Shown in pieces: positions 1,003 through 14,910 of a stretch of DNA of 22,031 nt; the stretch's first letter is position 1; each line of letters opens with the position of its first letter. Under the pieces are notes generated by a model that ran no database searches, was not told where the DNA came from, and worked only from the letters and a program-made list of their open reading frames with translations. Source of the stretch: a virus; IMG/VR virus record IMGVR_UViG_3300042090_002387, positions 1 through 22,031 of that record, one strand, 5' to 3'. The position numbers and the translations under genes were made by a program.

Positions 1003-1081
1003 GGCCCGATGGCGTAACGGTAGCGCACTCTCACTATCCTAGGCGAGAGGGGAGCGGGTTCGATTCCCGCAGAGGCCGCCA
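1003..1081 (+). tRNA. Atypical or degenerate tRNA (anticodon uncertain, possibly CCT/Arg)
   Basis: The right-hand half is canonical: T-stem GCGGG/CCCGC (1054-1058 with 1066-1070), T-loop TTCGATT, 3' acceptor strand 1071-1077, discriminator G and encoded CCA (1079-1081). A D-arm GCGT/GCGC (1012-1015 with 1023-1026) has a GG-containing loop. The anticodon stem CTCTC/GAGAG (1028-1032 with 1045-1049) is a perfect 5 bp. Two things are wrong. The acceptor stem pairs only at its outer four positions (GGCC with GGCC), with three mismatches below. The anticodon loop is 12 nt instead of 7. A CCT triplet preceded by T and followed by A (1037-1041) is the best anticodon candidate, which would decode Arg AGG. 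It could be a decayed tRNA, a tRNA-like RNA or a relic of integration into a host tRNA. Confidence 0.6.
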
Positions 1082-3811: not shown

Positions 3812-3853
3812 GGTCGGAGCCGGTTTATCCGGGGGGATGGCCGGCTCCGGACC
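3812..3853 (+). terminator. Strong GC-rich hairpin after the left gene cluster
   Basis: GGAGCCGG pairs perfectly with CCGGCTCC, extended by GGTC/GGACC across a one-base bulge, giving about 12 bp around an 18-nt loop. No T-run follows, so it may be a Rho-assisted terminator, an mRNA 3'-end stabiliser or an attenuator rather than a classic intrinsic terminator. Its position directly after the stop at 3805 and before the promoter at 3950 supports a transcript boundary. Confidence 0.5.
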
Positions 3854-3949: not shown

Positions 3950-3977
3950 TTGTTTGTAATGTGAAACAGGGTAGAAT
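3950..3977 (+). promoter_or_regulatory. Sigma70-like promoter
   Basis: TTGTTT (3950-3955), a 16-bp spacer and TAGAAT (3972-3977) form a good -35/-10 pair in an AT-rich stretch. The predicted transcript start is near 3984, four bases before ATG 3988, so the mRNA would be almost leaderless. Together with the terminator at 4597 it brackets a single gene. Confidence 0.5.
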
Positions 3978-3987
3978 CACTGCCGAA

Positions 3988-4572
3988 ATGCAATTTGTCC
4001 TGACACTCGACGAACCCACCCGGGAACTGTTCAAGCAGCTCATCGCTGCAGTGCAGGGCATCGAAAAAAACACGGCTCCCTCGCGTTTCGCAGTAGCATT
4101 CACAATCGCGTTGGTCAACAAGGAGAACACCATGAAAGCAGGAAAACTTTTCAAATTGGTAAAGGGCCGTGCGGGCGCCTCCGCGCCGATTTCGATCAGC
4201 GACTCAGCACCGCAGGCAATCGCAGTGTTTGGACAGGACGCCGAAGGCGAATACGGCGCCCTACTTCCAGCCGGTGCGTCGATCGCGCTCAGCGTCGGTC
4301 CGGGCGCCAATGGGACTCCTGGGACGCTCCTTCAGGACGCCACTCCCGGCATATTTACTTTCACCGACGCGGCTGGCGTCGTGCACACCAATGTTCAGGC
4401 GCTTGGTTCCGCTGTGTTCACTCCGACGCCGGCACCGAACGCGGATGTGAACGATCCCTTCTCGTTCAACTATCAAATCACAGGCGGCGATGGCGACAGC
4501 GGTTCACTGCTCCTGCAGACGGCCGTTGGCGCGGATGTCAGCGAAGTCATTGCCCTGCCAACCGGTTCCTAA
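3988..4572 (+). CDS. Beta-rich, Ig-like-fold hypothetical protein with possible internal start
   Basis: From ATG 3988 the frame gives 194 residues. Residues 1-48 form a polar/helical leader (DEPTRELFKQLIAAVQGIEK). Residue 49 is a second Met (ATG 4132) with an ideal ribosome site AGGAGA five bases upstream, so a 146-residue product is at least as likely and may be the main one. That shorter part starts basic (MKAGKLFKLVKGR), then is Gly/Ala/Ser/Thr-rich with alternating beta-strand patterns and Pro-rich turns, like Ig-like or virion decoration domains. There is no signal peptide. The gene is bracketed by its own promoter and terminator, marking it as an accessory unit. No family recognised. 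Confidence 0.6.
   Translation: MQFVLTLDEPTRELFKQLIAAVQGIEKNTAPSRFAVAFTIALVNKENTMKAGKLFKLVKGRAGASAPISISDSAPQAIAVFGQDAEGEYGALLPAGASIALSVGPGANGTPGTLLQDATPGIFTFTDAAGVVHTNVQALGSAVFTPTPAPNADVNDPFSFNYQITGGDGDSGSLLLQTAVGADVSEVIALPTGS
4123..4128 (+). promoter_or_regulatory. Internal Shine-Dalgarno site for ATG 4132
   Basis: AGGAGA with a short spacer precedes ATG 4132 inside a longer open frame. It is the best ribosome site in this part of the window and suggests either that translation really begins at 4132 or that two in-frame products are made. Confidence 0.5.
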
Positions 4573-4596: not shown

Positions 4597-4636
4597 AACC
4601 CCGGGGCTGGCTAGCTGGCCCCGGGTTCTTTTTTTT
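4597..4636 (+). terminator. Intrinsic transcription terminator
   Basis: AACCC(C)GGGGC pairs with GCCCCGGGTT across a short loop containing CTAGCT, with one bulged C, followed by C and eight T (4629-4636). This is a textbook Rho-independent terminator, 25 bases after the stop of the preceding gene. Confidence 0.9.
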
Positions 4637-4648
4637 AGGAGTCCCCCA

Positions 4649-4810
4649 ATGTTGCTTCTTATAATCGTCCTACTTTTACTTTTCGGTGCCGGCGGCGGCT
4701 TCTACGGATACAACCGCTGGGGCTATGGTGGCGGAATCGGGATTGTCGGAACGGTGCTGGTCATCATCGCCTTGCTTTATCTGATGGGATACTTTCCGCG
4801 CTTGCACTAG
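4649..4810 (+). CDS. DUF3309-like mini membrane protein
   Basis: A 53-residue protein starts at ATG 4649 behind TAGGAG. It has a very hydrophobic start (MLLLIIVLLLLFGAGGGF), a short aromatic/Gly loop (YGYNRWGYGGG) and a second hydrophobic helix (about residues 30-47), ending in FPRLH. Length and the hydrophobic, Gly/Tyr/Trp, hydrophobic pattern match the DUF3309 family of tiny bacterial membrane proteins of unknown function. Such proteins are more typical of bacterial chromosomes than of phage cores, which supports host-derived cargo. A -10-like TAGAAT overlaps its stop codon and probably serves the LuxR-type gene downstream. Confidence 0.65.
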   Translation: MLLLIIVLLLLFGAGGGFYGYNRWGYGGGIGIVGTVLVIIALLYLMGYFPRLH

Positions 4811-4813
4811 AAT
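4808..4813 (+). promoter_or_regulatory. -10-like element of a leaderless gene
   Basis: TAGAAT ends seven bases before GTG 4820, so the expected transcription start coincides with the first base of the start codon. No convincing -35 is seen about 17 bp upstream, so the promoter may depend on an activator or extended contacts. The local string CTAGAAT-N6-GTG recurs at 6952-6967. Confidence 0.45.
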
Positions 4814-4819
4814 GGCTGC

Positions 4820-5185
4820 GTGAAAATATCAGTTAGCAAGGATGGGAGCGAGTTCATCATCAGAATTCCGCGAGCTGAATTCCTGCGCCTAGGCGGCTTT
4901 CCTCTCAACAAACCGCTATCCAATCGCCAGCGCGAAATACTTTCCATGATCGCGATGGGCAAGCAAAATAGGGAAATCGCCTATGACCTAGGAATTACCG
5001 TGCGCACGGTCAAACATCACGTTAGCGCGTTACTTCAAATTCACGGCGTGCAAACGCGGCACGAACTGCTGGTCACGTATGTTAAGATCCAATCACAAGG
5101 AGCTTCCGATGAAAATCCGCAAGCTGCTGTTCCCGGCCTTGATCCTCTTGGCAGTCGTAGCAATCCCGCAGCAAGCCAACGCTAA
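4820..5185 (+). CDS. LuxR-type helix-turn-helix transcription regulator
   Basis: The 121-residue product starts at GTG 4820. Residues about 32-90 form a LuxR/FixJ-type C-terminal HTH: LSNRQREILSMIAMGKQNRE, IAYDLGITVRTVKHHVSALL, then a helix with TRHELLV. These match the family's conserved L-x-x-R-E-x-E/I-V-L, NKEIA-like and TVKxHxxxI-like positions. The part before it is only about 30 residues, so there is no receiver or autoinducer domain; it resembles single-domain GerE-like regulators. The last 26 codons overlap the next gene. There is no Shine-Dalgarno, and the -10-like box at 4808 predicts a leaderless mRNA. It probably controls the adjacent secreted-protein genes or phage promoters (inference). 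Confidence 0.8.
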   Translation: MKISVSKDGSEFIIRIPRAEFLRLGGFPLNKPLSNRQREILSMIAMGKQNREIAYDLGITVRTVKHHVSALLQIHGVQTRHELLVTYVKIQSQGASDENPQAAVPGLDPLGSRSNPAASQR

Positions 5186-5582
5186 TTGGTTTCACAAACA
5201 CAAGAAAGCGAAGGCAAGCGATCAACTGAAAGCCGCTGCGGCGCCACACTCGAACAATCTTTCTTGGGTGCAGTCAGTGATTCCGGCTGGCGCAACCTGC
5301 CCGGCGGGATCCACGGCGACGTCGACGGCCGTTACCTCGAATAGCGTGTATCGCTCGACTACTTCCGGCGGCGAGGCCGGCACGACACCGATTTCAGTTT
5401 CAGCGGCCGCAGAGACGACGTACAGCGATACCACGGTCGCTCCGGGGAATGTTTTCTACTACACGGTGACGGCAACGAACTGCGGCGGCACGTCCCCTAT
5501 GTCGAACGAAGTGGGGCCGCTTACGACGCCGAATCCCCTGCCGCCCAACGCGCCTACTGGCTTGACCGGAACAGCGCAGTAG
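5109..5582 (+). CDS. Secreted fibronectin type III-like domain protein
   Basis: A 157-residue protein starts at ATG 5109 behind AAGGAG, overlapping the regulator's 3' end by 77 bases. Residues 1-25 are a clear Sec signal peptide: MKIRK, hydrophobic core LLFPALILLAVVAIP, and an ANA-NW cleavage site. A basic linker (HKHKKAKAS) is followed by one FN3-like domain (about residues 45-145): a SW-V strand, a SVYRSTTSGG strand-turn, a TTYSDTTVAPG turn, FYYTVTATN, and a closing SNEV. Two Cys (TCPAG, TNCGG) may form a disulfide. Such domains bind proteins or carbohydrates at surfaces. With the next gene it forms a secreted pair, possibly a lysogenic-conversion function; that is inference. Confidence 0.75.
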   Translation: MKIRKLLFPALILLAVVAIPQQANANWFHKHKKAKASDQLKAAAAPHSNNLSWVQSVIPAGATCPAGSTATSTAVTSNSVYRSTTSGGEAGTTPISVSAAAETTYSDTTVAPGNVFYYTVTATNCGGTSPMSNEVGPLTTPNPLPPNAPTGLTGTAQ

Positions 5583-5590
5583 GAGGCTTC

Positions 5591-6235
5591 ATGCGTTCGC
5601 GAATTTGCGTGGTGCTCGCTCTGGTCTGTGCCTTCATCTTCCCCGCGAAGGCTCAGACCAAATACAATTTCGTCCTGAAATCCGCCCCAACCTCGTTGTC
5701 TTACGCTTGGACCACAGGTCAAGCCACGCCGGCCGCACAGACGATTCGGATCTTCGACAGCTCGACGTGCGGCACCGACCCGGTTTGTACGTTCGCGGCA
5801 ACAGTGGCAAGCGATTCGTCCTGGTTGACAGTCTCTCCGTCCAGCGGCACTACCGCATTCACGATTTCGGTTGGGATCAATACCAATGGCCTGGCGGCGG
5901 GCTCATACACCGGACACATAGTAGCGACGGCGCCGCTGCTCACTACCCCGACGCTTTCTATTCCGGTGACCCTTGCTGTTACGGCCGCTCACAAAATCAC
6001 GTTGACCTGGGCGACGGGCGCAACAGACTCAACGCACGCGCCTGCGACGAGCTTCAATATCCTGCGGTCGACAGGGTTTCCGGGCACGTTTGCTCAGGTG
6101 GGCACGAGCACGATGCCGACGTATACGGATTCAACTGTGACGGCCGGGCAGACGGTGTGTTACGAAGTTGAAGGCGTGGCCAACGGCATGAGCTCGCCAG
6201 TTGCGGCGGCTACCGCGTGCTTCACAATTCCCTAG
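5591..6235 (+). CDS. Secreted BACON-like plus FN3-like domain protein
   Basis: A 214-residue protein starts at ATG 5591 behind AGGAGG, eight bases after the preceding stop. Residues 1-22 form a signal peptide with an AKA-Q cleavage site. Residues about 30-130 look like a BACON or similar Ig-like domain: SSWLTVSPSSGTT, an ISV strand, a NTNGLAAGSYTGHI turn, and a closing PVTLAVT. Residues about 133-212 are FN3-like: KITLTWATGA, SFNILRSTGFPG, PTYTDSTVTAGQT, CYEVEGVAN. BACON domains are thought to bind carbohydrates or mucins and occur in gut bacteria and crAss-like phages. Tandem Ig-like folds with a signal peptide point to an exported adhesin-like protein. Function otherwise unknown. Confidence 0.75.
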   Translation: MRSRICVVLALVCAFIFPAKAQTKYNFVLKSAPTSLSYAWTTGQATPAAQTIRIFDSSTCGTDPVCTFAATVASDSSWLTVSPSSGTTAFTISVGINTNGLAAGSYTGHIVATAPLLTTPTLSIPVTLAVTAAHKITLTWATGATDSTHAPATSFNILRSTGFPGTFAQVGTSTMPTYTDSTVTAGQTVCYEVEGVANGMSSPVAAATACFTIP

Positions 6236-6240
6236 ATATT

Positions 6241-6288
6241 GGTGGTTAAATTTTTACAGTGGTGTTAAATATTTCGCGGGTGTAAAAT
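6241..6288 (+). promoter_or_regulatory. Three-fold GGTG-TTAAA motif with a -10-like box
   Basis: Three AT-rich elements led by GGTG occur at 6241 (GGTGGTTAAAT), 6261 (GGTGTTAAAT) and 6278 (GGGTGTAAAAT), spaced 18-20 bases, about two helical turns. The last contains TAAAAT (6283-6288), whose predicted transcription start (6295) lies five bases before ATG 6300. The arrangement could be an operator array over a promoter. No good -35 is visible. Confidence 0.4.
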
Positions 6289-6299
6289 TCCGCGCATCA

Positions 6300-6605
6300 A
6301 TGTCCAAATCTCCTTATCTGCTCAACACCCGCATGCTGGAAGTCAGATGGTCTGGGGGTTCGTGCGGGCAATCTGGATGCACCGATCCGGAATGCGTTTG
6401 CGCCCTGTGCGCCAAGCCGATTGGAATTTCTGATCAAGACCCGCGCAAGGCCAATCACGATCCCGAATGCTTCGGCTGCGATTTGTGCGTCGACGACGTG
6501 CCAATAATTTTATTTCGTGGCGAAGGCAAAGATTCAGGACAGGCCGCCTTTCACGACCATTGCTTCAAAACGCTGTTACTAAATCCGGCAAATGACGCGC
6601 GCTAA
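6300..6605 (+). CDS. Cys-rich metal-binding protein
   Basis: A 101-residue protein starts at ATG 6300 without a Shine-Dalgarno, just downstream of a -10-like TAAAAT, so it is nearly leaderless. It holds many metal-ligand candidates: SCGQSGC, PECVCALC, ECFGCDLC, and a C-terminal FHDHCF. The CALC...CFGCDLC...H..HC layout is reminiscent of LIM/PHD-like or zinc-ribbon folds with two sites, but no family is recognised. It overlaps the next gene by 14 bases. A longer reading from a TTG at 6201 would overlap the secreted protein upstream and lacks an RBS. Confidence 0.6.
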   Translation: MSKSPYLLNTRMLEVRWSGGSCGQSGCTDPECVCALCAKPIGISDQDPRKANHDPECFGCDLCVDDVPIILFRGEGKDSGQAAFHDHCFKTLLLNPANDAR

Positions 6606-6945
6606 AACTTCGACTGCCCTTGCTCCACTACTCTTCCCGCAACCGGAGGAAACTCCGGCGCTGAAATCCTGGGCGCTTGTCGAACTATTCGGACACCAGC
6701 GCATCGTTGGCCACGTGACGGTAGATCCGCCGGACTTCCCGGGCATGGTGCGCGTGGACGTACCGGCGCTGAAAAAGGATGACAAAATAATCCGCGAAGC
6801 ATTCACCCGCTACTTCGGACCGAAGGCACTTTACTCGGTCAGTCCAGTGCAAGAGAAAGATATTCCCATGCTGCTGGCGCAGATCGATGGTCGGCCTGTA
6901 CAACCCGTCTCATTCAGCAACTATCGCGACCGCGAAGATTTCTAG
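6592..6945 (+). CDS. Conserved phage hypothetical protein
   Basis: A 117-residue protein starts at ATG 6592, overlapping the previous 3' end. The central block (about residues 24-60: KSWALVELFGHQRIVGHVTV, DPPDFPGMVRVDVPAL) and later FTRYFGPKALYSVSPVQE resemble a family of small proteins I recall near early or accessory genes in tailed phages, with a W-A-x-V-E-L-x-G-H start of a beta barrel. Predicted content is mainly beta strand. No catalytic residues are evident. The name is unknown; conservation suggests a real function such as nucleic-acid or protein binding. Confidence 0.65.
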   Translation: MTRAKTSTALAPLLFPQPEETPALKSWALVELFGHQRIVGHVTVDPPDFPGMVRVDVPALKKDDKIIREAFTRYFGPKALYSVSPVQEKDIPMLLAQIDGRPVQPVSFSNYRDREDF

Positions 6946-6950
6946 GCCGT

Positions 6951-6958
6951 GCTAGAAT
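6951..6958 (+). promoter_or_regulatory. Extended -10-like element of a leaderless gene
   Basis: TAGAAT (6953-6958), with TGC immediately upstream as in extended -10 promoters, ends exactly seven bases before GTG 6965. The predicted mRNA therefore starts at the start codon. There is no recognisable -35, which is acceptable for extended -10 promoters. Together with 4808 it defines a repeated CTAGAAT-N6-GTG motif. Confidence 0.5.
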
Positions 6959-6964
6959 TCGCGC

Positions 6965-7156
6965 GTGCAATTCGTCTCAGTGCGCCTCACCAAGCGCGAC
7001 CGCTTTCTCGGATTACGCATTCACCTAATCCCCATTGGAACCAAACCCCCAAAGCCGGCGAAGCGATGTAAAGTGTGTTCAGTGCTGCTCGAGGACCGAG
7101 CGAAAGACCGGTGCGCGATTTGCGGCAAGGCTGGATTCAGAGGAGCTGCTAAATGA
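6965..7156 (+). CDS. Small zinc-ribbon protein upstream of portal
   Basis: A 63-residue protein starts at GTG 6965. The basic beta-rich N-terminus (SVRLTKRDRFLGLRIHLIPI) leads into a compact four-Cys ribbon: CKVC (residues 35-38) and CAIC (residues 50-53). This is the typical spacing of a rubredoxin-like zinc knuckle. Its stop overlaps the portal ATG (ATGA), so it is translationally coupled to the portal and might assist head assembly or regulate it. There is no Shine-Dalgarno; the -10-like box at 6953 suggests a leaderless transcript that would also cover the portal gene. Confidence 0.65.
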   Translation: MQFVSVRLTKRDRFLGLRIHLIPIGTKPPKPAKRCKVCSVLLEDRAKDRCAICGKAGFRGAAK

Positions 7157-8853
7157 CGGAACGAAGATCCACACCGCGGAGCGTCAAAAGCATCGCGCGC
7201 AAAATGCTCGCGGAAGAAACCAAGATCACCACCGGCCTGGCTCGAATCGAAAAGAAAAATCAGACGCTCACGCCGGGCAGCATCTTACACCCTACGCGCG
7301 TAAACGATAGCTTCCAAAACTTCGCGGCCGCGCTGGGGATGCAGACGTCCAACCTGATGGCGCAATCCACGTACGGATTCAATCCGATAACCCGGATCCG
7401 CACGCTCCTTGAATGGATTCACCGCGGTAGCTGGATTGGCGGCGTGGCGATCGATATCGTCGCCGACGACATGACGAAGGCCGGCGTCGACTTCAAGGGA
7501 GAGATTGAGCCGGACGATATCGAGAAAATAAACGAGGAGGCTGTCAATCTCGGCGTCTGGAATTCGGTAAACGACACTATCAAATGGTCGCGGCTCTACG
7601 GCGGCGCACTGGGAGTGCTGCTCGTCGAGGGGCAAAACCTCGCGACGCCATTTCGCGTTGAGACGGTCGGACGCGGACAGTTTCGCGGGATCCTCGCCAT
7701 GGACCGTTGGCAGGTCGAGCCAAGCCTTGAGAACCTGGTACAAGATTGGGGACCGCACTTCGGCCTGCCGATGTACTACCGCGTGACGCAGGATGCTCCG
7801 GCGCTATTCGGCCAGAGGATTCACTATACCCGCTGCATGCGCCTCGAGGGCATCCGCTTGCCGTACTGGCAGCGAGTGATGGAAAACTTGTGGGGGATTT
7901 CGGTCCTCGAGCGGCTGTACGACCGCATGGTCGCCTTCGATAGCGCCACAACCGGAATGGCCCAGCTCGCGTACAAAGCCTACCTGCGCACGATCAAAAT
8001 CAAAGGACTGCGCAATATCGTCGCGGCCAGCGGATCTCTCAACTACCGCGGCCTGATCAAGCAAGTGGAATTTATGCGGCTCACCCAAACGAACGAAGGC
8101 ATTACCATGCTGGACGGTGACGACGAATTCGAAGGGCTGCAAAACACGACGTTCACCGGAATCGGCGATGTTGTCATGCACCTGGGAGAACAGCTTGCGG
8201 GCGCCACAGGGATACCGCTTACTCGCCTGTTCGGGCAGGCACCGGCCGGACTCAATGCTACCGGCGAGAGCGACATGCAGATTTACGAGGGCGGAATCCA
8301 CCAACAACAGGAACGGCACGTGCGCGCGCCAATGACCATGGCATACCGCTGCATCGCACAATCGATCGGTGTCAAGCTGCCGAAGGGATTCGGGCTCAAA
8401 TTCAAGCCACTGCGCCAGCTCACGCCGGAGACGAAGGCATCAGTCGCGAAGGATAACATCGAAGCGATTACGGCGCTGGCGTCGGGCGGCTATATCAGCG
8501 ACAAAACCACACTCAAGGAAGTGAAGCAACAATCCAGTGTTACCGACGTCGGCACGAACATCACCAATGAGGACATCGAAAAGGCCAGCGACGTTCCGGT
8601 GCCGCCGGCGGAACTGGCCATGGATCCGGACGGCGACGAGGAAGGCGCCGCGCCGAAGCCACCGAAAAAACCGGCCACGGGCGACAGCCTCGAGAAACTT
8701 TCGCAACAGGAAGCGGGCTACGTGGACAAATCCACAAAGGCGACGCACTGCGGAATCTGCAGGCGATTCCAAAAGCCAAATGGTTGCAGATTGGTCGAGG
8801 GCGTGATAAAGGCTGAGGGCGGCTGCCTCTTTTATTTGAAGCCGGCGCAGTAG
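7153..8853 (+). CDS. Phage portal protein, DUF1073 type, with C-terminal four-Cys module
   Basis: The 566-residue protein forms the dodecameric portal ring through which DNA is packaged and ejected. Recognisable DUF1073 features run in order: the N-terminal DSFQNFAAALG segment, TLLEWIHRGSWIGGVAIDIV and ADDMTKAGVDF (about residues 93-120), IKWSRLYGGALGVLLVEGQ, LYDRMVAFDSATTGMAQLAY, and the TGIPLTRLFGQAPAGLNATG signature around residue 355. A Pro/acidic linker (about 490-520) follows, then a compact tail with C533-x2-C536-x8-C545-x12-C558 and the pattern F-x-x-P-N-x-C-x-x-V-E-G. A C-x2-C-x8-C layout like this occurs in small iron-sulfur (HiPIP-like) or zinc proteins in some phages, but it is unusual fused to a portal. 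DUF1073 is also linked in databases to Acb1-like names. Confidence 0.88.
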   Translation: MTERRSTPRSVKSIARKMLAEETKITTGLARIEKKNQTLTPGSILHPTRVNDSFQNFAAALGMQTSNLMAQSTYGFNPITRIRTLLEWIHRGSWIGGVAIDIVADDMTKAGVDFKGEIEPDDIEKINEEAVNLGVWNSVNDTIKWSRLYGGALGVLLVEGQNLATPFRVETVGRGQFRGILAMDRWQVEPSLENLVQDWGPHFGLPMYYRVTQDAPALFGQRIHYTRCMRLEGIRLPYWQRVMENLWGISVLERLYDRMVAFDSATTGMAQLAYKAYLRTIKIKGLRNIVAASGSLNYRGLIKQVEFMRLTQTNEGITMLDGDDEFEGLQNTTFTGIGDVVMHLGEQLAGATGIPLTRLFGQAPAGLNATGESDMQIYEGGIHQQQERHVRAPMTMAYRCIAQSIGVKLPKGFGLKFKPLRQLTPETKASVAKDNIEAITALASGGYISDKTTLKEVKQQSSVTDVGTNITNEDIEKASDVPVPPAELAMDPDGDEEGAAPKPPKKPATGDSLEKLSQQEAGYVDKSTKATHCGICRRFQKPNGCRLVEGVIKAEGGCLFYLKPAQ

Positions 8854-8861
8854 GAGACACG

Positions 8862-9098
8862 ATGTGGGAGAAATTGTGGTGGGCGGGGTATTGGATGTGG
8901 TGCGAGCCGGCCGGACAACTGACGGGCCTGATAATCGCAGCTTTGATCGTGCTCGCTTTTTTGTGGGCATGGATTTTCGACTCAAGGCGAGTGATGCTGT
9001 GTGCGTCCGCAGCATTGGCCTGTTTTTTAGTTTTTCTTTTCTGGTGGGTCGTGCCTTTGATCCACGATATTTTGTTGGTCGACATCAACAGCCATTAA
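8862..9098 (+). CDS. Two-helix membrane protein
   Basis: A 78-residue protein starts at ATG 8862 behind AGGAGACACG, eight bases after the portal stop. It has a Trp-rich N-terminus (MWEKLWWAGYWMW), a first transmembrane helix (about residues 19-37, GQLTGLIIAALIVLAFLWAW), a short charged turn (FDSRR) and a second helix (about residues 44-68), then a polar tail. Two helices with a short turn is a layout shared with some class II holins, but nothing else here suggests a lysis cassette. It is the first gene of the cargo block after the portal. Confidence 0.6.
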   Translation: MWEKLWWAGYWMWCEPAGQLTGLIIAALIVLAFLWAWIFDSRRVMLCASAALACFLVFLFWWVVPLIHDILLVDINSH

Positions 9099-9107
9099 GG
9101 AGGGGCG

Positions 9108-9365
9108 ATGCAAATCCCAGCAGCAGAACAAATCGAAGGTGCCGCAGATTCAATCACCACGCTTTCTGATTTTGTGCGAACGGACCAACTTGCCGAACTC
9201 AGGGAAGCTATGGGTGCAGACACTATAAAGAAACTTGGGGCGCCACTTACTACATCCGATGATTTTAATATCGGTTACACGCTTGGCTTGCAGGTCGCGC
9301 GCACAATGCTCTCCAACAGTGCCAAGCTCGCGATCGCGGGAATCGATCCCGGCGATTTGCTTTGA
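9108..9365 (+). CDS. Small hypothetical phage protein
   Basis: An 85-residue protein starts at ATG 9108 behind the strong site AAGGAGGGG. It is acidic, mostly helical (IPAAEQIEGAADSITTLSDF, DQLAELREAMGADTIKKLG) with a Gly/Tyr turn (FNIGYTLGLQVARTML). No Cys pairs, signal peptide or catalytic motif are seen. Its stop is three bases before the next ATG, indicating co-transcription. Function unknown. Confidence 0.6.
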   Translation: MQIPAAEQIEGAADSITTLSDFVRTDQLAELREAMGADTIKKLGAPLTTSDDFNIGYTLGLQVARTMLSNSAKLAIAGIDPGDLL

Positions 9366-9368
9366 TCA

Positions 9369-9653
9369 ATGGGCGATAAAATTCACAAGGCGGGACCGGA
9401 TGGCCACGGCAACGAGCTGTATGTTTTTCACTGTCCGGGCTGCGGCTACGGCCACAATGTGCCAGTGCCGCGGTGGACATGGAATGGATCGCTTGACAAG
9501 CCAACTTTCTCTCCGTCGCTCGACGTCAACAAGCAACATCCTGAGTATCGATGCCACTCGTTCATCAAGGACGGACAGATCCAGTTCATGAACGATTCCT
9601 GCCACAAGCTGAAAGGCCAGACGGTCGATCTGCCGGATTGGGACTGCGAATGA
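9369..9653 (+). CDS. DUF6527 family protein
   Basis: A 94-residue protein starts at ATG 9369. It matches the phage DUF6527 family: an N-terminal strand with FHCPGCGYGHNVPV (CxxC plus His), the WTWNGSLDKPTFSPSLDV block where F-x-PSL is invariant, CHSFIKDGQIQFMNDSCHKL, and the closing GQTVDLPDW. Conserved Cys and His suggest a bound metal. These proteins are common in tailed-phage genomes and have no established function. The stop overlaps the next ATG (ATGA). Confidence 0.8.
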   Translation: MGDKIHKAGPDGHGNELYVFHCPGCGYGHNVPVPRWTWNGSLDKPTFSPSLDVNKQHPEYRCHSFIKDGQIQFMNDSCHKLKGQTVDLPDWDCE

Positions 9654-9850
9654 GAATCACGCTGGTACAAATAATCGAAAGCGGTAAGGGGCGCAAGGAG
9701 GTCGGCATCGCGGTCGAATCATTGAAGTGGTGGCACGATGACGGGGATCATGGGTACGTGACGTTCATCGATTCGACCAACATGGACGTTGTGGAAAACA
9801 AAGCGGAAATCGACAGGAAAATTGCTGAGGAAGAAAAAAGATTAGCTTGA
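9650..9850 (+). CDS. Small hypothetical phage protein
   Basis: A 66-residue protein starts at ATG 9650, coupled to the gene before it by ATGA. It is highly charged: an N-terminal beta segment (RITLVQIIESG), then KEVGIAVESLKWWHDDGDHGYV, and a C-terminal acidic/basic helix (NKAEIDRKIAEEEKRLA) likely to form a coiled coil. No family recognised. A longer frame from 9551 lies inside the DUF6527 gene in another phase and is not credible. A promoter overlaps its stop. Confidence 0.55.
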   Translation: MRITLVQIIESGKGRKEVGIAVESLKWWHDDGDHGYVTFIDSTNMDVVENKAEIDRKIAEEEKRLA

Positions 9851-9875
9851 CGTACAATCTTGGATGGTTTATTTT
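9847..9875 (+). promoter_or_regulatory. Sigma70-like promoter for the replication-type gene
   Basis: TTGACG (9847-9852), a 17-bp spacer and TATTTT (9870-9875) give a near-consensus promoter overlapping the preceding stop codon. The predicted start near 9882 leaves a 5' leader of about 115 nt before ATG 9997, in contrast to the leaderless genes elsewhere in the window. Confidence 0.6.
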
Positions 9876-9892
9876 CCTTGCGCGGTATTGCT

Positions 9893-9976
9893 CTCGGATG
9901 CGGTCCTTCGGAATGTTAGCCTTGCCGGGTCGACGCCGATAACCGCATCCGAGCGGCTGTGAATGGTTGACCCGGC
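9893..9976 (+). promoter_or_regulatory. Two interleaved inverted repeats in the 5' leader
   Basis: Arm 1 CTCGGATGCGGT (9893-9904) is perfectly complementary to ACCGCATCCGAG (9942-9953). Arm 2 GCCGGGTC (9924-9931) is complementary to GACCCGGC (9969-9976). The order 1-2-1'-2' is the topology of an H-type pseudoknot or of two crossing DNA operators. A Shine-Dalgarno GAGGA follows at 9984. This could be an autoregulatory RNA element or a binding site; the sequence cannot separate the two. Confidence 0.6.
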
Positions 9977-9996
9977 GAACACTGAGGAAAAACTGA

Positions 9997-10590
9997 ATGC
10001 CGAAACGCATTATCGAGTTCGAGTCCGTCTGGGCATCGGATAAATTAGCGGCATGCCAGGAACAAAATCGAGTTGAGTATGTGTGGCTTTACGGACTGGC
10101 CGACGCAAATGGCAGCTTCGAAATCACGAACATGCGGGTCGTTTGGGGCAAGGTTTCACCCATTAGACCGAGCCTCACGCTGGAGAGATTGACCGACGTT
10201 TTCCGGGACTTTGAGGAACATGGTTTGATGTTCACGTGGGAGGAAAACGGCAAGAAATTCGCTCATTGGGTTGGTAGTACTAAGCCTGGTAGGCTGCCAG
10301 CGGAAGGACATAGGGCAAGATACCAATCATTTGCGCCTAACGTACCAATGAATCAGTTACTTGCATACTCGAAGGAACACGGGATGACCGATTCCGGAGT
10401 TAGTCCGGATAAGGTCCGGACAGGAAGGGATGGGATTGGGATTGGAAGGGATGGGATTGGGTTTGGAGTGGCTGCGCCACAAGGCGCGCCTGAGAGCGAT
10501 TGGGAGTACCTGAACCATCCTGTCTATGGAGAGCAAAGACGGAAAAGGCTTGAGGCGGAGCGGTCGTCGACAGCCAAGAGGAAACCATGA
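9997..10590 (+). CDS. Replication organiser / DnaD-DnaT-like N-terminal domain protein
   Basis: A 197-residue protein starts at ATG 9997, eight bases after GAGGA. Residues 1-105 resemble the winged-helix N-terminal domain of phage replisome organisers: FESVWASDKLAACQEQNRVE, YVWLYGLADANGSFEITNMR, then a RPSLTLERLTDVFRDFEEHG helix, LMFTWEENGKKFAHWVG and GRLP. The middle is low-complexity (GRDGIGIGRDGIGFG), encoded by a 21-bp tandem repeat, and the C-terminus is basic. Such proteins bind the origin and recruit helicase or its loader. No helicase or loader is in the window, so partners would be elsewhere or host-supplied. Its stop overlaps the next gene (ATGA). Confidence 0.65.
   Translation: MPKRIIEFESVWASDKLAACQEQNRVEYVWLYGLADANGSFEITNMRVVWGKVSPIRPSLTLERLTDVFRDFEEHGLMFTWEENGKKFAHWVGSTKPGRLPAEGHRARYQSFAPNVPMNQLLAYSKEHGMTDSGVSPDKVRTGRDGIGIGRDGIGFGVAAPQGAPESDWEYLNHPVYGEQRRKRLEAERSSTAKRKP
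10393..10464 (+). repeat. Iteron-like repeats inside the replication gene
   Basis: Three TCCGGA palindromes lie exactly 11 bases apart (10393, 10404, 10415), followed by a 21-bp tandem duplication (10423-10443 and 10444-10464, differing at one base) built of GGAAGGGATGGGATTGGG. The + strand has six GGG tracts with mostly 2-3 nt loops, a strong G-quadruplex candidate. Phage lambda carries its origin iterons inside gene O, so an origin here is reasonable but unproven. Confidence 0.55.
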
Positions 10591-10853
10591 GCGAAGAAAA
10601 AACGAGGGTCGATATCCAGCGGGGTCGGCTAAACGATGGCCGCATGGATCCTGACGATATCGCGCGGCTCGAGGCGATGGGGAACTGTGGAAAAAAAATT
10701 GTACTGCTGATGCGCGCGCAGAAAATTGAGAATCGTTCCATTCACGTAATCCAAATCACTCACGATGAGTGGTGCCCGAATGCAGCGCACCCGGAAAGCG
10801 TCTGCACGTGCGACGCCGACGTCAGAATGATTCCGGTGCAGAGAATACCGTGA
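10587..10853 (+). CDS. Conserved phage hypothetical protein
   Basis: An 88-residue protein starts at ATG 10587, overlapping the previous stop (ATGA). The first 55 residues are helical and charged (DPDDIARLEAMGNCGKKIVL). The C-terminus carries IHVIQITHDEWCPNAAHPES, then VCTCDADVRM, a pattern with clustered His/Cys/Asp that looks like a metal site and resembles small proteins I recall from other phages. Function unknown. It shares a GTGA stop/start overlap with the next gene. Confidence 0.6.
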   Translation: MSEEKTRVDIQRGRLNDGRMDPDDIARLEAMGNCGKKIVLLMRAQKIENRSIHVIQITHDEWCPNAAHPESVCTCDADVRMIPVQRIP

Positions 10854-10999
10854 AGCTGCGCGCGCGAATCCGGGAGATTGCGGCGCAGAAATCCATGGGC
10901 GGGAAAATCACGATCGAGCCCAGCGACGAAACGAAGCGAAAAATTATCGATGCGCAAAAGGCTGCGCTGGAGCGGAGATTGAAGGAATTGAAGCGATGA
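10850..10999 (+). CDS. Short basic helical protein
   Basis: A 49-residue protein starts at GTG 10850 in a GTGA overlap with the upstream stop and ends in an ATGA overlap with the next gene. It is very rich in Lys/Arg/Glu and predicted to be almost wholly helical (KLRARIREIAAQ, KRKIIDAQKAALERRLKELK), so a coiled coil or nucleic-acid-binding helix is plausible. An upstream extension from 10769 would overlap the previous gene and is not preferred. No family recognised. Confidence 0.55.
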   Translation: MKLRARIREIAAQKSMGGKITIEPSDETKRKIIDAQKAALERRLKELKR

Positions 11000-11295
11000 G
11001 TTTGGAAGGGAAAATACAGAGAAAAATTCCTGTGAGCGAGCATGCGCTCACAGTCATATTTTTTCCGAAGGGCTTCGCGGACGGGGTGTTGATCCACGAA
11101 CTTAGCCCTGCGTCGGGGAGGTGCGCTTGCGGGTGGGACTACGTGCCATCCGAATCCAACGGGTATGAGCGAGTCGAATCTTTGCGGTCAGCATATTGGA
11201 AACACATCGGAGATGTTCTCAAGGGGGGCAACCATGACGACGTGCAAAAAAATAAAATCCGGCTATGCCGGCCAGCGCTACCAGGTCAGCTTTGA
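10996..11295 (+). CDS. Small hypothetical protein
   Basis: A 99-residue protein starts at ATG 10996 (ATGA overlap). Residues 1-78 look protein-like: a beta-rich start (PVSEHALTVIFFPKG), a Cys/Trp motif (GRCACGWDYV) and a polar helix (RVESLRSAYWKHIGDVL). The last 20 residues, which overlap the next gene by 62 bases, are less convincing, so the 3' end may have drifted by a small frameshift. The CxCxW motif suggests a metal or structural site only. No family recognised. Confidence 0.5.
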   Translation: MSLEGKIQRKIPVSEHALTVIFFPKGFADGVLIHELSPASGRCACGWDYVPSESNGYERVESLRSAYWKHIGDVLKGGNHDDVQKNKIRLCRPALPGQL

Positions 11296-11467
11296 GGATG
11301 CCGACGGCAAGCGGAAAACAATGGGCTGGACGGAGCGCGCCGACGGCGAGCCGCTAGTTGGTTCGATCAATGCGCACCCGGTTTGGAAAAATCCGCAGGT
11401 GTTCGATCTGCAAACCACGAAAAATTGGAACCTTCCAAGCGACGCAGAGCCGGAGAACAAAGAGTGA
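11234..11467 (+). CDS. Conserved phage hypothetical protein
   Basis: A 77-residue protein starts at ATG 11234, behind AAGGGGGG. The body is SGYAGQRYQVSFEDADGKRK, TMGWTERADGEPL, then a HPVWKNPQVFDLQ block. This YA-QRY-V ... GW ... HP layout recurs in small hypothetical proteins of tailed phages as I recall them. It should be beta-rich. The stop overlaps the methyltransferase GTG (GTGA), so it is coupled to it. Starts upstream (11165) would overlap the preceding gene heavily. Confidence 0.65.
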   Translation: MTTCKKIKSGYAGQRYQVSFEDADGKRKTMGWTERADGEPLVGSINAHPVWKNPQVFDLQTTKNWNLPSDAEPENKE

Positions 11468-12705
11468 TCATTCGGGGGGACGCACGGAATATTCCGCTGC
11501 GGGATGAGTGTGTCCAGTGTGTGGTGACGTCGCCGCCGTATTGGGGCCTGCGGAAATATGAGGGCGAACAGGGCGCAGAGCCTTTCGGCCTCGAGCCAAC
11601 CATCTCCCTTTACATCGAACACACGGTGGAAATCCTGCGCGAAATCCGGCGCATCCTGCGTACCGATGGCGTGGTCTTCTGGAATATAGGCGATAGCTAC
11701 TGCACAGGCGCGCGGACGGTCCGGACACAATCCACGAATAAAGTTTTCGATCGCGCGCGGTTCGTGGCAGCGAATTGCGTGCCACGCAACGGCCAGCCCG
11801 AAGGATTAAAGCCGAAGGATTTATGCTTGATTCCCGCGCGCGTGGCGATCGCCGCACAGGCGGATGGCTGGTGGATCCGTTCGCTGATCATCTGGGCGAA
11901 GCCCAACCCGATGCCGGAAAGTTGCCAGGACCGCCCCACCGATGCGTACGAACACATAATCATGCTCACAAAATCCGAGCGCTACTATTGGGACGCCGAT
12001 GCGGTTTGTGAACCTGTGAGCCATAACACCCATTTGCGGATTTCGCAGGATTTAGCAAATCAAATCGGAAGCGACCGCGCCCACGGCGGTGCGAAAACAA
12101 ACGGACGAATGAGAGCAGTGATCAAGGGAAGCACCCGCAAGATCGCTGAGGCTGGATCAGGAATTAAAGCGAACGATTCTTTTGAATCCGCTTGCATTCT
12201 ACCGGTAATCACTCGGAATATGCGCAACGTATGGACATTCCCCACGCAGCCGTACAAGGGCGCGCACTTCGCCACCTTCCCCGAAGAATTGCCGCGCCGG
12301 TGCATCCTGGCCGCCACATCGGAGCGCGGCTGCTGCGCGAGTTGCGCCACGCCCTACGTGCGCGTGACGGCGCCGGTGAAAACCAGTGGCAAAAGCTGGA
12401 ACGGGGATGATCTGAAATCGCAGGGGGTGAACCGCGGGGAACTGCAGGAATACGCTGGTGCGAAGTTTTATCAGAATTACGCGCCGCCCCAGACCTTGGG
12501 ATGGAAACCGGGATGCCGATGTTTTCCCGGCGAATCGATCCGCCCCGAACCCTGCCTCGTACTCGATCCCTTCGGTGGCAGCGGCACTACAGCTCGAGTG
12601 GCCGTAGAACTGAATCGCCGCGCGGTTTCGATGGATTTGGCGTACCACGACCATGCAGAAAAGCGCACGCGCAACGTCCAGCGGAGACTGACCTGTGCCG
12701 GATAA
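11464..12705 (+). CDS. Orphan DNA methyltransferase (N4-cytosine/N6-adenine, beta-type order)
   Basis: A 413-residue protein starts at GTG 11464, overlapping the previous stop. The N-terminus IIRGDARNIPLRDECVQCVV runs into the catalytic motif T22-SPPY-WGL (motif IV). Near the C-terminus, LDPFGGSGTTARVAVELNRR (about residues 367-386) is the S-adenosylmethionine-binding motif I. Motif IV before motif I is the beta-class order. SPPY is frequent in N4-cytosine enzymes but also in N6 enzymes, so the target base is open. A Cys-rich insert (RGCCASCATPYV and GCRCFPGE) is a common zinc-ribbon-like feature in phage homologues. No restriction endonuclease is nearby; protection of phage DNA or gene control is likely. 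Confidence 0.85.
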   Translation: MIIRGDARNIPLRDECVQCVVTSPPYWGLRKYEGEQGAEPFGLEPTISLYIEHTVEILREIRRILRTDGVVFWNIGDSYCTGARTVRTQSTNKVFDRARFVAANCVPRNGQPEGLKPKDLCLIPARVAIAAQADGWWIRSLIIWAKPNPMPESCQDRPTDAYEHIIMLTKSERYYWDADAVCEPVSHNTHLRISQDLANQIGSDRAHGGAKTNGRMRAVIKGSTRKIAEAGSGIKANDSFESACILPVITRNMRNVWTFPTQPYKGAHFATFPEELPRRCILAATSERGCCASCATPYVRVTAPVKTSGKSWNGDDLKSQGVNRGELQEYAGAKFYQNYAPPQTLGWKPGCRCFPGESIRPEPCLVLDPFGGSGTTARVAVELNRRAVSMDLAYHDHAEKRTRNVQRRLTCAG

Positions 12706-13486
12706 AAAAAAATCTAAGCCGCGTCGGCCAACTGCAGCCGAACTCCGGCGCGCGCTCGAGCAGCGCTACACCCGCGGTCGCAAAGCCGAAGCGCAATACC
12801 GCCGTCAGCTCGTTGGCGTCGGCAAGCAGGTCGGATCCCTCATCCGCGGGTTCGCGCCCGGCGGCGTCATCACAAATCTTGAAGGCTTGACGGCCGTGCT
12901 GAATCGCTACGCGGAAATCTTGAAGCCGTGGGCCCGGGCTATCACTTTCAACATGCACGCATCGGTTGCCCGCCGGGATCTCGTTACCTGGGAAGAACGC
13001 GGCAAGGAAATGTCGCGCGCGCTGCGCAAGGAACTTCTTTGGGCGCCAACCGGAGAAGCTATGCGCGCAGCGATGGAAGAACAGGTCACGCTCATCACGT
13101 CACTTCCGATCGAAGCGGCGCAGCGCGTCCACAAAATTGCCCGGGAGCAAATCCTGAATAGCGAGCGTTATCCGGAACTGCAAAAAGAAATCATGCGCTC
13201 CGGGCACGTCACTGAATCGCGCGCCCGGTTGATTGCGCGGACGGAGACGGCACGCACCGCTTCGCTGCTAACTGAATCGCGCGCGCGCTATGTTGGATCG
13301 ACGCATTATATTTGGCATTCGGTAGGAGATTCTGACGTCCGGCCGCGACACCGTAAATTAAACGGCCACGTTTTCGCCTGGGATGATCCGCCGGTATCCG
13401 GCGAGAGCGGTGAGCGCTCGCACCCGGGGCAGATTTACAACTGCAGGTGCTTTGCGGAACCGATTATTCCGGATGTGCTGAAATGA
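12695..13486 (+). CDS. Head morphogenesis protein, SPP1 gp7 / Mu gpF type
   Basis: A 263-residue protein starts at GTG 12695, overlapping the methyltransferase by 11 bases. It begins with a very basic stretch (MPDKKKSKPRRPTAAELRRA) and is helical to about residue 165. It then carries the family hallmark C-terminal domain: RARLIARTETARTASLLTES, then THYIWHSVGDSDVRPRHRKLNG, FAWDDPP, and the signature HPGQIYNCRCFAEPI. In SPP1 and Mu this minor head protein is packaged in the procapsid and interacts with the portal. Its usual place is directly after the portal gene; here the 3.8-kb cargo block separates them. Its stop overlaps the next ATG. Confidence 0.88.
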   Translation: MPDKKKSKPRRPTAAELRRALEQRYTRGRKAEAQYRRQLVGVGKQVGSLIRGFAPGGVITNLEGLTAVLNRYAEILKPWARAITFNMHASVARRDLVTWEERGKEMSRALRKELLWAPTGEAMRAAMEEQVTLITSLPIEAAQRVHKIAREQILNSERYPELQKEIMRSGHVTESRARLIARTETARTASLLTESRARYVGSTHYIWHSVGDSDVRPRHRKLNGHVFAWDDPPVSGESGERSHPGQIYNCRCFAEPIIPDVLK

Positions 13487-13926
13487 TCAAAGGCCCGTGC
13501 GGCACCTGCGCATTTCGCAAAGGCTGCGAAACCGCCGGCGAACCGGACAACGTTCTAAAAGCCGAAATCTGCGCCGCCGCCGGCCTGCCGTTCTTTTGTC
13601 ACCACGAAACGAACATGCACCTACTCGAAAGGCAACCTATGCGCGATGAACTGCGCGCAAATGGAATTTGCCGCGGGTGGCAAGTGGAAGTCCGGAAGCG
13701 CAATGCTGCCGGATTTTTCAAGACGCACAGGATTTATCGCAAGGCCATCGGCCGCGCCGCGATTTTGTTGTTGGATATGTTTATTGCCGCCAAGAGTAAG
13801 CGCGAAAAAAAATCGATTCTTACCAAGCTCCGCGACGCCCTTTTCATCTTGAAACGGCCGGACCTCAGGCCGGAAATTTCTCGTGCGCGCATCCAAAAAG
13901 TGAACGAATACCTATCGCCGTGGTAA
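13483..13926 (+). CDS. Cys-rich N-terminal phage protein
   Basis: A 147-residue protein starts at ATG 13483 (ATGA overlap). The N-terminus has CGTCAFRKGC (C6, C9, C15), a further Cys near residue 34, and PFFCHHE, giving a C-x2-C-x5-C ... C ... CHH set of ligands that could hold a zinc or iron-sulfur site. The same kind of N-terminal CxxCxF-x-x-x-C / F-x-CHH module occurs in small phage proteins of unknown role. The rest is basic and helical, including a hydrophobic segment (AAILLLDMFIAAKS). It is the last gene before the independent promoter at 13955. Confidence 0.6.
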   Translation: MIKGPCGTCAFRKGCETAGEPDNVLKAEICAAAGLPFFCHHETNMHLLERQPMRDELRANGICRGWQVEVRKRNAAGFFKTHRIYRKAIGRAAILLLDMFIAAKSKREKKSILTKLRDALFILKRPDLRPEISRARIQKVNEYLSPW

Positions 13927-13954
13927 GCGATGTGCCGTAATAGACACCTACCCC

Positions 13955-13983
13955 TTGACAATTCCAAATAAGCACCTTACGTT
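13955..13983 (+). promoter_or_regulatory. Sigma70 promoter of a leaderless gene
   Basis: A perfect TTGACA (13955-13960), a 17-bp spacer and TACGTT (13978-13983) form a good promoter. The predicted +1 is base 13990, the G of the GTG start codon. It is the clearest leaderless case in the window and opens a unit closed by the terminator at 14871. Confidence 0.7.
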
Positions 13984-13989
13984 CTCAAT

Positions 13990-14286
13990 GTGAACTCGCT
14001 TCTCAAGCAATACTCCGTTGACTTCACTTCCGACGGCGAATCCACGGTAGTTGAAATCGACACGAGCGTAGTCCCTGTAAGTGAGGATTTTCGCGGAAAT
14101 GCGCCAACCGCTGTATCGCAACAGGCGGTCACCGGCGAAGGAATCACCGGCAATCTCCCGAACACGACCGCAACGCTGCAAGGCACGACGGTGACGATCA
14201 CCCTGCCGGCCGCCTTGCCGCAGTACGACGCGAACCAAAATTTAATAATTTACAATGTGACGTTTTACTTGCAGTATGGGGGCTGA
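13990..14286 (+). CDS. Beta-rich hypothetical protein with leaderless start
   Basis: A 98-residue protein starts at GTG 13990 with no Shine-Dalgarno; the predicted transcript start is the same base. It is Thr/Val/Asn-rich with alternating strand patterns (QYSVDFTSDGESTVVEIDTS, ATLQGTTVTITLPAALP, NLIIYNVTFYLQYGG), like a small beta-sandwich or virion surface protein. There is no signal peptide. It lies between head genes but has its own promoter, and it is followed after 12 bases by a second gene and then a terminator. No family recognised. Confidence 0.6.
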   Translation: MNSLLKQYSVDFTSDGESTVVEIDTSVVPVSEDFRGNAPTAVSQQAVTGEGITGNLPNTTATLQGTTVTITLPAALPQYDANQNLIIYNVTFYLQYGG

Positions 14287-14298
14287 CGGAGGACCGAG

Positions 14299-14820
14299 AT
14301 GAAAAACAAGTTTCTATCCGCGCTTCGAGGTTTCACAGTTGCCGCAATAGTTGCCGCGATGTGCCTGGGCGCGATGGACGGGATCCATTCGGCAGTCGAG
14401 CACAACCTGATTGCACCGTCAAATGTGCTGGCGCAGTCGATCACATCACTTTTCCCGAATTCGAAATTCCCGCCGATGGTGTTCACGGCGACGTCGCAGA
14501 CCAAAAAGCAGACGCTTGGCGGATTCTCGACGGCCACGCTGGAAATTACGGGAACGGCCACGTCCTGCATCTTGCAGGTCGAAGTAAGCAATGACGGCGG
14601 CTCCAACTATTTTGCGACGCCCTATTTTGCCGGCGTCTACACTTCGAACGTCCCGGTTATTGTGACGGGCGCAGCCTTTCCAACGTACAACAACTCGCCC
14701 GTGCTTTACTGGATCAGCGTAGCGGGCATGACGAATCTGGAAGTCGTCTCGAGCGGCACGTTCACCGGCACGAGCTGCACCGTGCAGATCACGGCGAGCT
14801 CGAATAAATATTTGCCGTAG
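14299..14820 (+). CDS. Exported or surface hypothetical protein
   Basis: A 173-residue protein starts at ATG 14299 behind GGAGGACCGAG. A long N-terminal hydrophobic stretch (about residues 12-26, FTVAAIVAAMCLGAM), then a polar region and a VLAQSI site near residue 45, suggests a signal anchor or a long signal peptide. The mature part is beta-rich (TLGGFSTATLEITGTATSCI, QVEVSNDGGSNYFATPYFAG, SGTFTGTSCTVQI) with two Cys that could pair, and resembles small phage or host Ig-like domains. It is co-transcribed with the gene at 13990 and ends 50 bases before a strong terminator. An exported accessory function is inferred. Confidence 0.6.
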   Translation: MKNKFLSALRGFTVAAIVAAMCLGAMDGIHSAVEHNLIAPSNVLAQSITSLFPNSKFPPMVFTATSQTKKQTLGGFSTATLEITGTATSCILQVEVSNDGGSNYFATPYFAGVYTSNVPVIVTGAAFPTYNNSPVLYWISVAGMTNLEVVSSGTFTGTSCTVQITASSNKYLP

Positions 14821-14870: not shown

Positions 14871-14910
14871 TGGCCAGTGTGGCGAAGTTGCCGCGCTGGC
14901 CATTTTTTTT
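14871..14910 (+). terminator. Intrinsic transcription terminator
   Basis: TGGCCAG (14871-14877) pairs with CTGGCCA (14896-14902), continued inward by GTGTGGC-type pairs with wobbles to a 6-nt GAAGTT loop, giving a 13-bp stem. Eight T (14903-14910) follow. It is a strong Rho-independent terminator closing the 13955 unit and lying directly before the ribosome site of the next head gene. Confidence 0.92.

Follow-up and report, generated by a model that had tools for sequence, protein, structure and literature searches.

The window analysed here, a complete 22-kb IMG/VR record of an uncultured soil phage (IMGVR_UViG_3300042090_002387, 22,031 nucleotides (nt)), contains several genes whose start codon lies directly behind a hexamer resembling a bacterial -10 promoter element. 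We propose that the genes starting at 13990 and 6965, and with a leader of a few nt the gene starting at 3988, are quite probably the first genes of transcription units with sigma-70-type promoters in which the -10 element adjoins the start codon, so that their mRNA would be leaderless or near-leaderless, a mode that is probably acidobacterial. The layouts appear to be real and conserved for at least two, and probably three, of these genes. Leaderless initiation is supported by comparison with related phages for 13990 and 6965, for which we infer the transcription start, the translation mode and the host; for 3988, the comparison supports a -10-adjacent start with a predicted leader of 0-4 nt.

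Promoter-start layouts and their conservation

The layout concerns five genes, which are designated by the position of their first nucleotide (N6, N10 and so on give the number of nt between two elements; SD, Shine-Dalgarno site):

13955..13983, + strand: promoter TTGACA-N17-TACGTT (TTGACA 13955-13960, TACGTT 13978-13983), followed by N6 and GTG 13990
13990..14286, + strand: gene 13990, 98 amino acids, GTG start without SD; predicted leaderless; conserved in four phages from residue 1 on
6950..6958, + strand: extended -10 element TGcTAGAAT (TAGAAT 6953-6958), followed by N6 and GTG 6965; no recognisable -35 element
6965..7156, + strand: gene 6965, 63 amino acids, zinc-ribbon-like with four cysteines; predicted leaderless; ATGA overlap with the portal start
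3972..3977, + strand: -10 element TAGAAT, N10 before ATG 3988; predicted leader of 4 nt; weak -35 element only
3988..4572, + strand: gene 3988, 194 amino acids, ATG start; internal in-frame ATG at 4132
4808..4813, + strand: -10-like TAGAAT, followed by N6 and GTG 4820; no conserved counterpart found
4820..5185, + strand: LuxR-type helix-turn-helix gene 4820, 121 amino acids, GTG start without SD; possible leaderless start, the least supported
6283..6288, + strand: -10-like TAAAAT, N11 before ATG 6300; predicted leader of 5 nt
6300..6605, + strand: gene 6300, cysteine-rich, 101 amino acids, without SD; no orthologue found

RNA polymerase carrying sigma-70 starts about 7 nt past the -10 element, so a gap of 6 nt after the hexamer would place +1 on the start codon. 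Consistent with the original prediction, each hexamer at 4820, 6965 and 13990 ends N6 before a GTG (position -12), the TTGACA with its 17-bp spacer at 13990 and the extended -10 TG at 6965 are both in the sequence, and a looser, shifted form occurs at 3988 (-16) and 6300 (-17). The lack of SD sites was likewise confirmed: upstream of all five genes and of the three orthologues described below, AGGAGG is matched over fewer than 4 nt. The open reading frames (ORFs) of 4820, 6965 and 13990 offer no in-frame start codon ahead of the GTG, and in the first two the TAG of the gene's own -10 hexamer doubles as an in-frame stop. The prediction that all these genes begin with GTG failed: 3988 and 6300 start with ATG, as do two further cases in a relative, and several SD-led genes of the window use GTG, which is thus not diagnostic of the layout.

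The most informative relative, G400 (IMGVR_UViG_3300031718_000012, a 60-kb contig with loci L174 and L181-L183), is syntenic with the window at a protein identity of roughly 32-69%. Among 22 orthologous starts, the layout was found in all three orthologues of layout genes (3988, 6965 and 13990) versus none of the 19 others (Fisher P = 6e-4). At 6965, TGc-TAGAAT-N6-GTG in the window corresponds to TGt-TAGATT-N6-GTG in G400; at 13990, TTGACA-N17-TACGTT-N6-GTG corresponds to TTGACA-N17-TAGATT-N7-GTG (L174); and at 3988, TAGAAT-N10-ATG corresponds to TATCAT-N7-GTG. The comparison of -10-to-start distances that had been proposed as a check therefore speaks for the leaderless reading of 13990 and 6965, where the spacing is conserved together with the protein start, and for 3988 as a -10-adjacent gene; 4820 and 6300, which the prediction placed alongside them, have no conserved counterpart. 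G400 shows the layout at two further places: TTGACA-N17-TAGAGT-N6-ATG heads an operon of a 60-amino-acid ribbon-helix-helix-like gene followed by a nuclease-like gene (both named by inspection), and TTGACA-N16-TACACT-N7-ATG precedes a small membrane protein.

The 13990 family, whose members were recovered by local tblastn and then by profile, extends this comparison to four phages. All four, at 41-61% identity to the window copy, share the position of the GTG in the protein; TANNNT lies at -12, -13, -12 and -14, and a -35 element is recognisable each time. Besides the window and G400, the family comprises a homologue in locus L115 (41-43% identity; TGGACA-N18-TGtTAGCAT-N6-GTG, an extended -10 with TAGCAT at -12) and one in locus L024 (49% identity; TTCACT-N18-TATCAT-N8-GTG, with TATCAT at -14), and a plain consensus promoter scan of the regions in the three relatives lists every one of these promoters. 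The 13990 protein has no PHROG or Pfam match, single-protein peptide-pattern searches with 4820, 13990 and 16430 returned no homologue in viral contigs, and profile searches gave no convincing match to 13990 or 14299 in about 386 acidobacterial genomes, nor to 14299 in 389 proteobacterial ones.

Within the window, a uniform rule was applied to the 45 gene starts that could be used: the first T of TANNNT had to lie 10-17 nt ahead of the start codon, and an SD was scored when 4 nt or more agreed with AGGAGG. Among these starts, only 3988, 4820, 6300, 6965 and 13990 carry TANNNT in this interval, and an SD accompanies none of these five as against 29 of the 40 other genes (Fisher P = 0.0036), a contrast that is mildly circular since the window starts were chosen with SD sites in view. 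The G400 comparison is free of this circularity for the layout genes, because their starts are forced by the ORFs. Three of the 45 genes have TANNNT exactly at -12, where the window-wide rate predicts 0.21 (P ~0.001); at -12/-13 there are again three, against 0.46 predicted from the background upstream of the same genes (P = 0.011). The motif TAGAAT-N6-GTG, picked post hoc, is present twice where 0.05 would be expected, and none of 100 shuffles reached two. Taken alone, this window-internal signal is no more than suggestive. Spacings pooled from mixed relatives at first gave noise, and an all-frame promoter-to-start histogram in the clade rose at gaps of 5-8 nt and included several internal false starts; the analysis was therefore rested on orthologous starts.

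Two observations concern the neighbourhood of the layout genes. Three of the phages that carry the 13990 unit have small LuxR/GerE-type helix-turn-helix genes in the vicinity of the head cluster, at differing positions (window 4820-5185, L024 8796-9134, L115 449-643). Upstream of gene 6300, window positions 6241-6290 contain three near-repeats, GGTGGTTAAAT, GGTGTTAAAT and GGTGTAAAAT, about 18-20 nt apart, which are possible operator sites.

Transcription units, proposed mechanism and probable host

The units headed by these genes include the following additional features:

14299..14820, + strand: second gene of the 13990 unit, 173 amino acids, SD GGAGG; signal-peptide-like N-terminus by inspection; co-inherited with 13990
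14871..14902, + strand: intrinsic terminator with a 14-bp stem and T8, closing the 13990 unit; z = -5.7
4600..4625, + strand: intrinsic terminator closing the 3988 unit
7153..8853, + strand: portal protein gene, SD AGGAG; probably co-transcribed with gene 6965

No other terminator-like hairpin of the window is as strong as these two. In G400, a 15-bp terminator (L174) stands at the place of 14871-14902 and a T-run hairpin at that of 4600-4625; none was found for the 13990 unit in L115. Because terminators with G400 counterparts close both units, 3988 and 13990-14299 can be described as promoter-gene(s)-terminator cassettes resembling phage morons, whose original description is reportedly due to Juhala et al. 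in 2000. Morons are autonomous accessory units (discussed in PMC7067206). Both units have their own sigma-70-type promoter (TTGACA-N17-TACGTT at 13990, conserved in relatives; a -10 element with a weak -35 at 3988) and, in the window as in G400, their own factor-independent terminator. For the 13990 unit, to which this comparison was confined, insertion between genes that are adjacent in relatives was found as well: the slot between the Mu F-like gene and the protease gene spans 1433 nt in the window, measures less than 400 nt in 56 of 106 relatives and holds various inserts in the others. Of the 75 genes that were called in these inserts, TANNNT stands at -10 to -17 in five, namely two 13990 homologues and three isolated cases; the layout is therefore tied to the 13990 gene family and lineage and not to inserts generally.

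The proposal that this start mode may mark accessory (early or lysogenic) genes is only partly borne out, and its early or lysogenic part is not supported. It fits the moron-like 3988 and 13990-14820 units and breaks down at 6965, whose stop overlaps the portal start (ATGA), so that its promoter probably serves the head genes, and in G400, where the layout also opens an early-looking operon. The best reading is that layout genes share the position of first gene in a transcription unit with its own promoter, and not accessory status.

Host RNA polymerase would start on the GTG or no more than 1-2 nt away from it; at 3988 it would start about 4 nt before the ATG. Ribosomes would initiate on the resulting leaderless or near-leaderless mRNA, and later genes of each unit would use SD sites or ATGA coupling. 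The 3988 and 13990-14820 units would sit as moron-like cassettes beside or inside the head genes, with strong intrinsic terminators at their end. Leaderless mRNAs can be bound by 70S ribosomes, and GTG is a good leaderless start in some bacteria and a poor one in E. coli (review PMC9031893). Gene 3988 may in addition give a second, shorter product from its internal ATG 4132, where the AAGGAG-N6 spacing is the same in the G400 orthologue (L181 ~14212, - strand); this AAGGAG also encodes a conserved Lys-Glu, and its conservation could serve the protein instead.

The phage most likely borrows a start mode native to its host, which is probably a member of the Acidobacteriota, as suggested by one tRNA of the relative G400. 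This tRNA-Thr (CGT) (L181 13050-13123, - strand) is closest to Acidobacteriota, with matches (E <= 1e-5) in 104 of 149 acidobacterial versus 12 of 150 Pseudomonadota genomes, the best reaching 84% over nearly the full length. In 800 kb of the acidobacterial genome G356, TANAMT peaks at -12/-13 (25 versus 3.2 expected, P = 2e-14), and 300 kb of a Paraburkholderia genome show no such peak. Leaderless genes made up 9.7-19.4% of genes in all three acidobacterial genomes examined in 2011 (PMC3160421).

Alternative readings

That the layouts are chance matches selected from some 45 gene starts is very improbable as a general account. The generic TANNNT-N6-RTG is indeed as common over the whole window as in shuffles (10 versus 7.5), and chance could still explain 4820 and 6300; for 13990 and 6965 it is already contradicted by the full layout agreement of the G400 orthologous starts and by the four of four in the 13990 family at such protein divergence. 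A closer competitor, which we nevertheless hold to be rather unlikely, accepts the promoters and gives the mRNA a leader of 1-5 nt, with SD-independent binding of 30S or 70S ribosomes near the 5' end, making these genes near-leaderless and not truly leaderless. The gaps of 7 nt (13990 in G400), 8 nt (L024), 10 nt (3988) and 11 nt (6300) would suit it, while the exact 6-nt gaps found for 4820, 6965 and 13990 in the window, for the L115 homologue and for the 6965 orthologue of G400 predict +1 at the start codon itself. For 4820 only, there is not far from an even chance that the TAGAAT is a coincidental by-product of the stop codon before it, the gene being translated by termination-reinitiation on a transcript from further upstream. 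Its TAG (4808-4810) is the stop codon of a 53-amino-acid gene (4649-4810) and lies 9 nt upstream of the GTG, neither a -35 element nor a TG extension is present, G400 has no LuxR-type orthologue, and many of the eleven other SD-less genes start at or beside the preceding gene's stop codon; yet the hexamer is identical in sequence and spacing to the better supported one at 6965, and the terminator 4600-4625 lies upstream.

Several further points weigh against leaderless starts of acidobacterial type at the head of these units. Gaps of 6, 7, 8 and 10 nt allow leaders of 1-4 nt, 4820 and 6300 are without comparative support, and the folds of the first 60 nt are ordinary. The generic TANNNT spacing is weakly enriched in the window taken alone, and 11 pooled contig pieces of relatives gave seven cases at -12/-13 in 369 starts, which is not clearly significant. 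When the 6965 layout was sought upstream of other portals, only a distant homologue in L002 (28%) turned up, with no -10 element at any candidate start. The host assignment leans on a single tRNA of a relative, the tetranucleotide correlation mixes metagenome-assembled genomes (MAGs), prophage and Proteobacteria loci, and of five acidobacterial genomes from which at least 200 kb were sampled, only one showed a strong -12/-13 peak; it was weak or absent in the others, whose samples were smaller than that of G356.

A more far-reaching idea, which we consider doubtful, is that phages of Acidobacteriota deliberately divide two initiation modes, leaderless promoters serving autonomous units under conditions favouring 70S ribosomes (stress, lysogeny) and SD sites serving the rest, with 3988 combining both on one ORF as a long (near-)leaderless and a short 4132 product. 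No integrase was recognised by eye in G400.

Relation to known systems and further content of the window

One leaderless phage mRNA is that of lambda cI (cited in PMC9031893), a single repressor gene with an AUG start and its promoter at the start codon. The window likewise has phage genes with a predicted promoter at the start, here at several units, mostly with GTG and without an assigned function. Our proposal is close to the "TA-led" leaderless bacterial genes (TANNNT at about -12; Zheng et al. 2011, PMC3160421), which include those of Acidobacteria and agree in hexamer, spacing and SD absence; the difference is that the present genes belong to a tailed phage, stand at the starts of phage transcription units and in some cases keep a full -35 element. 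In the -10-region-adjacent ORFs of Deinococcus-Thermus, a -10 element a few bp from the ORF drives leaderless mRNA and an added -35 element strengthens it (Zhong et al. 2025, PMC12340547); the arrangement is the same in a different phylum, experimental there and predicted here. Like morons, 3988 and 13990-14820 have their own promoter and terminator, with a variable insertion slot; unlike them, they have a promoter that runs directly into the start codon. The layout is ordinary in kind if the host is acidobacterial; what is new is its conservation among such phages.

The literature searched contained no description of leaderless starts that are conserved in uncultured phages from a phylum that has been little studied. 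SD-based gene callers may misplace such starts, and the -10-to-start spacing provides a cheap sequence signal for independent transcription units such as morons and, weakly, points to the host. The state of the cell affects leaderless translation differently from SD-led translation, which makes a regulatory role conceivable.

The window carries the head module of a contractile-tailed phage: the portal (7153), a Mu F-like head morphogenesis protein (12695), a DUF2213/head maturation protease (14919), a cement protein of the XM1 gp53 / E217 gp24 kind (16430), the major capsid protein (17121) and the tail sheath (from 21323). Relatives of the portal are found in prophages of many Proteobacteria and in a few Acidobacteriota MAGs. 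On the 5' side of the portal gene, positions 5109-6235 hold two exported-looking genes with counterparts in G400, the second with a sub-threshold BACON-domain match. A long GC-rich inverted repeat without a T run (GGTCGGAGCCGG...CCGGCTCCGGACC, 3812-3853) lies downstream of gene 3533. Finally, positions 1003-1078 (+ strand) are tRNA-like, scoring 29.4 bits against an Rfam gathering threshold of 29 and missed by ARAGORN; the anticodon stem closes a 12-nt loop (ACTATCCTAGGC) in place of the normal 7 nt, so that this element may be decayed or unusual.

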